A stretch of 48,150 nucleotides of DNA. It comes from Nitrospirota bacterium (GTDB lineage: Bacteria > Nitrospirota > Leptospirillia > Leptospirillales > Leptospirillaceae). Below the pieces are notes generated by a model. It saw only the letters and a program-made list of their open reading frames with translations, searched no databases and was not told where the DNA came from. This document shows, piece after piece, positions 18,959 through 32,577 of the stretch. Positions within the stretch are counted from its first letter, which is position 1, and every line of letters begins with the position of its first letter. Made by a program: the position numbers and the translations under genes. The stretch spans positions 1 to 48,150 of the forward strand of contig JAJZCZ010000005.1 of the NCBI GenBank assembly GCA_021828805.1, read 5' to 3'.

Positions 18959-18982
18959 TCGGCACCCCCTGTCGTGAGGTCG

Positions 18983-19114
18983 TTAGGTCAACCCGAAACC
19001 CTTTGGCCAGACATGCCAAAGGCCGGGATCGGTCGCAGTCAGATGATGTTCCACTCTCCACGGGCGGACGGTTAAAATCTCCCCTCCGGTCGTGAGAGTT
19101 CCTGGGGAAGTCAC
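18983..19114 (-). CDS. Candidate 43-aa leader ORF upstream of speD
   Basis: GTG start 7 nt after AAAGGAGC; VTSPGTLTTGGEILTVRPWRVEHHLTATDPGLWHVWPKGFGLT*; ends 24 nt before speD. Confidence 0.4.
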   Translation of the reverse strand: MTSPGTLTTGGEILTVRPWRVEHHLTATDPGLWHVWPKGFGLT

Positions 19115-19266
19115 GACAAAGCTCCTTTGTTGCAGGGAAAGCCGACGGGATACGACGATGGGACACGGTCTTTCTCGGAACGTACCAGTCGGTTTTGCAG
19201 GACCGTCATTACTGCCATGGATTTCATTGTCGGGGCAGAGCCGGTTCCCGGTCAACAATCGGTCAG

Positions 19267-19294
19267 AATATACACGATTTTTTAGGGATTGCAA
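19267..19294 (-). promoter_or_regulatory. Sigma70-type promoter for the speD leader, with A/T-rich UP-like upstream tract
   Basis: Minus strand: AAAAAAATAAAAATATTAC-TTGCAA-16 nt-TATATT. Confidence 0.6.
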
Positions 19295-32412: not shown

Positions 32413-32577
32413 GCCGGCGGTCAGCGACCGGGTGTAGACTCCCGGCAGCCTTCGGTGGTAGGATGGTGTCGTTCGCTTCTCGCGAATGGCGATGGGGTTC
32501 GCCTAATCCCGATGTTTCGGGTGATGACTCCTACCATGGGTGGTCCTGGATCAGGATTCCGGCACATGTGGTGGGAG
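32413..32577 (+). promoter_or_regulatory. Extended structured leader around the fluoride aptamer (candidate expression platform)
   Basis: TGGTAGGA (32456-32463) and TGGTGGGAG (32569-32577) are each complementary to (C)TCCTACCA (32528-32536); further hairpins TTCGC/GCGAA (32472-32486) and CGGTC/GACCG (32418-32430). Confidence 0.55.
32488..32535 (+). ncRNA. Fluoride riboswitch (crcB motif) aptamer
   Basis: GGCGATGGGGTTCGCCTAATCCCGATGTTTCGGGTGATGACTCCTACC: P1 GGCGA/TCGCC, second hairpin CCCGA/TCGGG, conserved TGATGACTCCTACC tail, pseudoknot GGGGT(loop)/ACTCC; near-identical in conserved positions to crcB RNAs such as GGCGAUGGAGUUCGCC...UAAUGACUCCUACC. Confidence 0.92.

Follow-up and report, generated by a model that had tools for sequence, protein, structure and literature searches.

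Within the window, i.e., the whole 48,150-nt stretch analysed here (Nitrospirota bacterium, family Leptospirillaceae, assembly GCA_021828805.1, contig JAJZCZ010000005.1, positions 1-48,150 of the forward strand), the gene for S-adenosylmethionine decarboxylase (AdoMetDC), speD, is preceded by a small upstream open reading frame (uORF) whose C-terminus, VWPKGFGLT-stop, is identical in 18/18 speD leaders of the family, in five genera including Leptospirillum. As judged from the pattern of codon changes, selection acts at the level of the uORF peptide. We consider it probable that the uORF is a cis-acting arrest leader peptide that would lower SpeD, with a polyamine-pathway metabolite as the probable signal; the arrest, its direction and its ligand are what we infer. 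An earlier note on this DNA had proposed a bacterial uORF controlling AdoMetDC, analogous to the eukaryotic one, and peptide-level conservation strongly supports such a reading. The family sample comprised 21 genomes, 18 of which carry speD (the window's own genome counted among them), and these 18 loci form the basis of the comparisons below: 12 loci of the window's genus were aligned as congeners, and six belong to more distant relatives of the family.

The speD gene (18958-18479, minus strand, as for all operon and leader features below) starts with GTG and encodes the AdoMetDC proenzyme (TIGR03330, 143 bits), whose core aligns with the T. maritima enzyme 1tlu, with the HTWPE and FTCG regions retained. 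Its end is overlapped by speE, encoding a polyamine aminopropyltransferase (18510-17593; NF002010, 273 bits), and the third gene of the operon encodes an ancestral-form Orn/Lys/Arg decarboxylase (17577-16120; PF01276); speE adjoins speD, and the decarboxylase gene lies downstream of both, in all 18 genomes. The three genes are grouped likewise in L. ferrooxidans, where the third protein is a lysine decarboxylase (PMC8503589), and a Leptospirillum aminopropyltransferase produces spermidine and, under some conditions, spermine too (PMC11107197). A SpeD neofunctionalised as an ornithine or arginine decarboxylase (cf. PMC10407285) is unlikely given the conserved HTWPE region and the adjacent speE. 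Note that speD, speE, the decarboxylase gene and the leader motif are all missing from three genomes of the family (G002, G010 and G018), one of which is 96% complete; apparently, spermidine synthesis was lost there as a unit, or else assembly gaps account for the two less complete genomes.

The sigma-70-type promoter that the earlier note had placed ~300 nt before speD is indeed present (TTGCAA-16-TATATT, 19294-19267), with a predicted transcription start near 19260; both hexamers are invariant in 12/12 congeners, and the six more distant relatives display TTGAAA or TTGAAT with a TATTAT-like -10 element at the corresponding position. Likewise, the 43-codon uORF described there (19114-18983; GTG start, TAA stop, VTSPGTLTTGGEILTVRPWRVEHHLTATDPGLWHVWPKGFGLT) was recovered with its Shine-Dalgarno sequence (SD) AAAGGAG (19128-19122), located 7 nt before the start codon, and has counterparts of 43-50 codons in 18/18 leaders. 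At this site, CAAAGGAGC is invariant in the alignment of the genus, and GGAG occurs 5-8 nt before the uORF start in all 18 leaders; the window's genus uses GTG as the start codon, the other four genera ATG. The speD SD, AGGGGG (18970-18965), lies 12 nt after the uORF stop, and its core begins 9-15 nt past that stop in the 18 leaders. In addition, the uORF stop is separated from the speD start, which is non-ATG (GTG or TTG) in 18/18, by 21, 22, 24 or 28 nt; since such gaps shift the frame among relatives, a readthrough or frameshift fusion giving SpeD an N-terminal extension is ruled out.

Several other features of the leader were recorded. In one congener (L005), an insertion of ~44 nt with repeated ATCCGG/GTCCGG units follows the promoter, ahead of the uORF SD, and the uORF and its spacing remain intact. 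Close to the 5′ end predicted for the transcript (19259-19226), the genus keeps GACCGATTGTTGACCGG almost unchanged, and ATTGTTG can pair with a downstream CGACAAT (6-7 of 7 pairs in 11/12 congeners), possibly forming a 5′ protective hairpin or an operator. An overlapping ATG-initiated frame that ends at the uORF start (19227-19111) was set aside, as comparable frames occur in two leaders only (L001 and L003). No intrinsic terminator was found in the speD leader, and no Rfam family matched it at gathering score or credibly at a relaxed E-value, including the covariance models of SAM and spermidine riboswitch aptamers. Above gathering score, Rfam matched the window only once, at a fluoride riboswitch elsewhere (RF01734, 41.5 bits, 32479-32540 on the plus strand).

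The uORF peptide is conserved in a strongly polarised manner. The invariant C-terminal codons V-W-P-K-G-F-G-L-T-stop, which we propose as the arrest sequence, occupy 19012-18983; upstream of them, residue -12 is an invariant Leu (19021-19019), residue -11 is Trp in 15 leaders and His in three, and residue -10 is free. By parsimony on a tree built from speD, the nine C-terminal codons and the stop underwent 29 nucleotide changes and 0 amino-acid changes, an outcome with a probability of ~5e-19 under neutrality (a rough value, based on a mean synonymous fraction and ignoring transition bias). Synonymous variation was found at each C-terminal codon able to vary, with four Pro codons, four Leu codons, three Gly codons at -5 and four at -3. 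Pairwise pS reaches 0.58 in this segment vs a pN of 0.004, the small pN value arising from multi-step paths between Leu codons, and pN/pS is near 0.5 in the N-terminal part. Within a single clade (L006-L011), the N-terminal codons display 45 nucleotide and 24 amino-acid changes, whereas the C-terminal codons display 6 and 0. A fixed C-terminus behind a drifting N-terminus is what known arrest peptides show at the sequence level, and an element acting purely through RNA would not produce it. The reality of the uORF can be considered settled, since reading frame, SD, position of the stop and C-terminal peptide are all kept in 18/18 leaders.

The motif is also tightly linked to this operon. Among 396 genomes of the phylum (18 members of the family with speD, three without the operon and 375 others), the exact degenerate motif matched 18 times, once per speD-bearing family genome; it was absent from the other 378 genomes, and the reversed-motif control gave 0 matches in the 396. 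In the window's genome, the only exact match to the core pattern TGGCCNAARGGNTTYGG is the speD site, and near matches before other genes showed no excess (27 vs 41 in the reversed control). No occurrence was detected in speD leaders of other phyla or of other Nitrospirota (~80 loci), nor in viral contigs. During this comparison, a distinct 10-11 codon mini-ORF (MNGS(E)KGGP..) was observed to be conserved at speD in four Rokubacteria species (L059, L060, L061 and L065); its TGA and the TTG start of speD overlap by 4 nt, and AAAGGGGG within it doubles as the likely speD SD, suggesting possible translational coupling with speD.

By every feature testable here, the uORF belongs with the cis-acting leader peptides: it has its own SD in 18/18 leaders, a conserved C-terminus behind a variable N-terminus, and a fixed position before speD. 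The following course of events may be proposed. The speD-speE-decarboxylase mRNA would start at the predicted promoter, and the uORF would be translated from its strong SD. With the A site occupied by the uORF stop, the invariant residues would lie at most ~12 residues from the peptidyl-transferase centre, and TnaC and SpeFL block release through a stretch at about this distance (PMC8429421). The uORF stop is TAA or TAG in 18/18 leaders and TGA in 0/18, so that all are readable by RF1. A ribosome halted at a stop codon covers ~10-11 nt past it, and since the speD SD core begins just there, a new 30S subunit would be left without room on it; a ribosome stalled at the uORF stop would thus block speD initiation. 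Normal release, in turn, would allow speD to be translated through fresh initiation or reinitiation. Since AdoMetDC commits the pathway to spermidine, the most economical signal appears to be a polyamine, or a metabolite close to one, acting in feedback, with spermidine or spermine as the first candidates, followed by decarboxylated SAM, SAM or a diamine. If such a metabolite promotes the arrest, the result would be product feedback on AdoMetDC, as pathway logic and analogy suggest.

Other explanations of the leader have to be weighed against this arrest reading. The earlier note had also proposed an RNA attenuator, in which GTCGTGA (19117-19111) alternates between two TCACGAC copies (19095-19089 and 18977-18971) and the uORF and speD are under the control of hairpins. 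The segments are present in the window and perfectly complementary, but GTCGTGA pairs fully with the internal copy in only 4/12 congeners and with the speD-proximal copy in 5/12, the others retaining 2-6 of 7 pairs with no evident compensating double changes; the ORF is kept in 18/18 leaders, whereas the complementary segments fail beyond the 4-5 closest species, and their mutually exclusive pairing finds no support. The ACAAAG/CTTTGT hairpin around the uORF SD (19130-19116) exists as described, but it is intact in 2/12 congeners, which leaves a working role unsupported. The 8-bp hairpin CCTTTGGC/GCCAAAGG near the uORF end (19022-19000) fared better, with 6 or more of its 8 pairs kept in 12/12 congeners, but inspection of the alignment revealed no counterpart in other genera of the family; moreover, the invariant L-W-x-V-W-P-K codons overlap with it, and their synonymous variation costs it base pairs. 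Transcriptional attenuation through alternative hairpins is unlikely since no terminator was found, and conserved competing pairings were not observed either. RNA structure may therefore contribute locally and is not the shared principle of these leaders, and we regard the attenuator as very improbable.

The same folding predictions bear on a switch of opposite direction (erm- or SecM-type), in which arrest or translation of the uORF end would open an RNA structure hiding the speD ribosome-binding site and raise SpeD. Predicted folds leave the speD SD mostly paired (probability of being unpaired 0.00-0.39 in 16/18), and masking a stalled ribosome raises its accessibility in L014-L016 and L018; however, masking brings no gain in most congeners and lowers accessibility in L013, and we saw no pairing partner of the speD SD that was conserved among the relatives. 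Such inconsistent predictions led us to reject a conserved sequestration of the speD SD. The SD begins at or just beyond the expected edge of a stalled ribosome, and we consider this switch unlikely, while still giving it some weight. Plain translational coupling, by which the uORF would simply feed ribosomes to the weak GTG/TTG start of speD and sense no metabolite, would fit the strong uORF SD, the non-ATG speD start and the short gap, yet it needs no particular peptide, whereas nine consecutive residues are invariant; it appears improbable. Much the same low probability applies to a trans-acting micropeptide, whose C-terminus would bind SpeD, SpeE or another target after release: strong peptide-level selection and strict co-occurrence with the speD operon speak for it, but conservation is limited to the last 9-12 residues while the remainder drifts freely, and the uORF never leaves its position 21-28 nt before speD. 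Finally, when judged from the window's genome alone, the uORF is only mildly unusual, since 2.5% of dinucleotide-shuffled leaders carry a comparable SD-preceded ORF (at least 30 codons, ending at most 40 nt from the gene start); conservation in 18/18 leaders with synonymous-only change nevertheless makes it almost inconceivable that the ORF merely arose by chance in a long leader that is not translated.

To our knowledge, bacteria have few known arrest peptides that sense metabolites, and those studied in depth come from enterobacteria. Neither the motif, nor the string WPKGFG, nor a bacterial speD uORF was found in the open-access literature, the coverage of which was incomplete. If the arrest reading is true, relatives of Leptospirillum would have evolved independently the control logic that mammals use on AdoMetDC, and a nine-residue motif shared by the whole family could show how the ribosome tunnel reads a polyamine-pathway metabolite, in a system small enough for a purified translation system.

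Stalling of nascent peptides at the stops of uORFs has precedents in polyamine genes (PMC4505036, PMC13025110, PMC8429421, PMC7815308), and by its sequence the present uORF is a member of none of the MAGDIS, SpeFL or MdtU families. In mammals, the MAGDIS uORF of AMD1 confers feedback on AdoMetDC with spermidine (PMC4505036, PMC13025110). As in that case, the uORF would reside on the AdoMetDC mRNA (a placement deduced here from the promoter), the identity of the peptide matters, and arrest at the uORF stop, which is proposed here, blocks initiation at the main ORF (PMC4505036, PMC13025110). In contrast, the peptides are unrelated (6 residues there vs 43-50 here, ending in VWPKGFGLT), and the present leader involves a bacterial 70S ribosome with SD initiation, a stop located 21-28 nt from the main start and a different class of AdoMetDC; the likeness, if real, would be convergent.

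Among bacterial systems, the ornithine-sensing SpeFL of E. coli speF is also a leader peptide of similar ORF size that precedes a polyamine-synthesis gene (PMC8429421, PMC7815308), and it undergoes a termination arrest in which RF1-mediated release is inhibited, an arrest that is proposed for the present uORF. Unlike here, SpeFL acts on a different gene in a different phylum, its sequence MENNSRTMPHIRRTTHIMKFAHRNSFDFHFFNAR shows no similarity by inspection, and its stop lies 257 nt before speF, with induction through Rho and RNA structure. MdtU, which precedes the spermidine exporter mdtJI in E. coli, is likewise a bacterial uORF with a more conserved C-terminus, on a spermidine-responsive transcript, whereas its peptide MDNLFRTLFSTFTHLRTSSTILLVGEQHWRNAL shares no motif with ours and its stop is 106 nt upstream, with Rho-dependent induction (PMC7815308). 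The 21-28 nt available here differ clearly from the Rho-loading spacers of both systems (257 and 106 nt), and because the gap is so much shorter, a direct block of initiation is the simplest reading. TnaC of the tna operon also carries its key residues near the C-terminus and represents a ligand-assisted termination arrest (PMC8429421), but it uses a UGA stop read by RF2 and Rho-mediated induction, whereas the present uORFs end with TAA or TAG and have almost no spacer; no sequence relation is claimed. The spermidine riboswitch, a SAM-I variant, exerts feedback on bacterial spermidine genes including speD (PMC10853860), which makes the feedback proposed here plausible biology, although an RNA aptamer is the sensor there and the present leader shows no match to SAM-I or any other Rfam family. 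A more specific and more tentative proposal is that VWPKGFGLT-stop might sense an end product of polyamine synthesis in the ribosome tunnel, arrest translation at the stop and switch off AdoMetDC, in which case it would represent an independent, convergent bacterial counterpart of MAGDIS and a new metabolite-sensing arrest motif.
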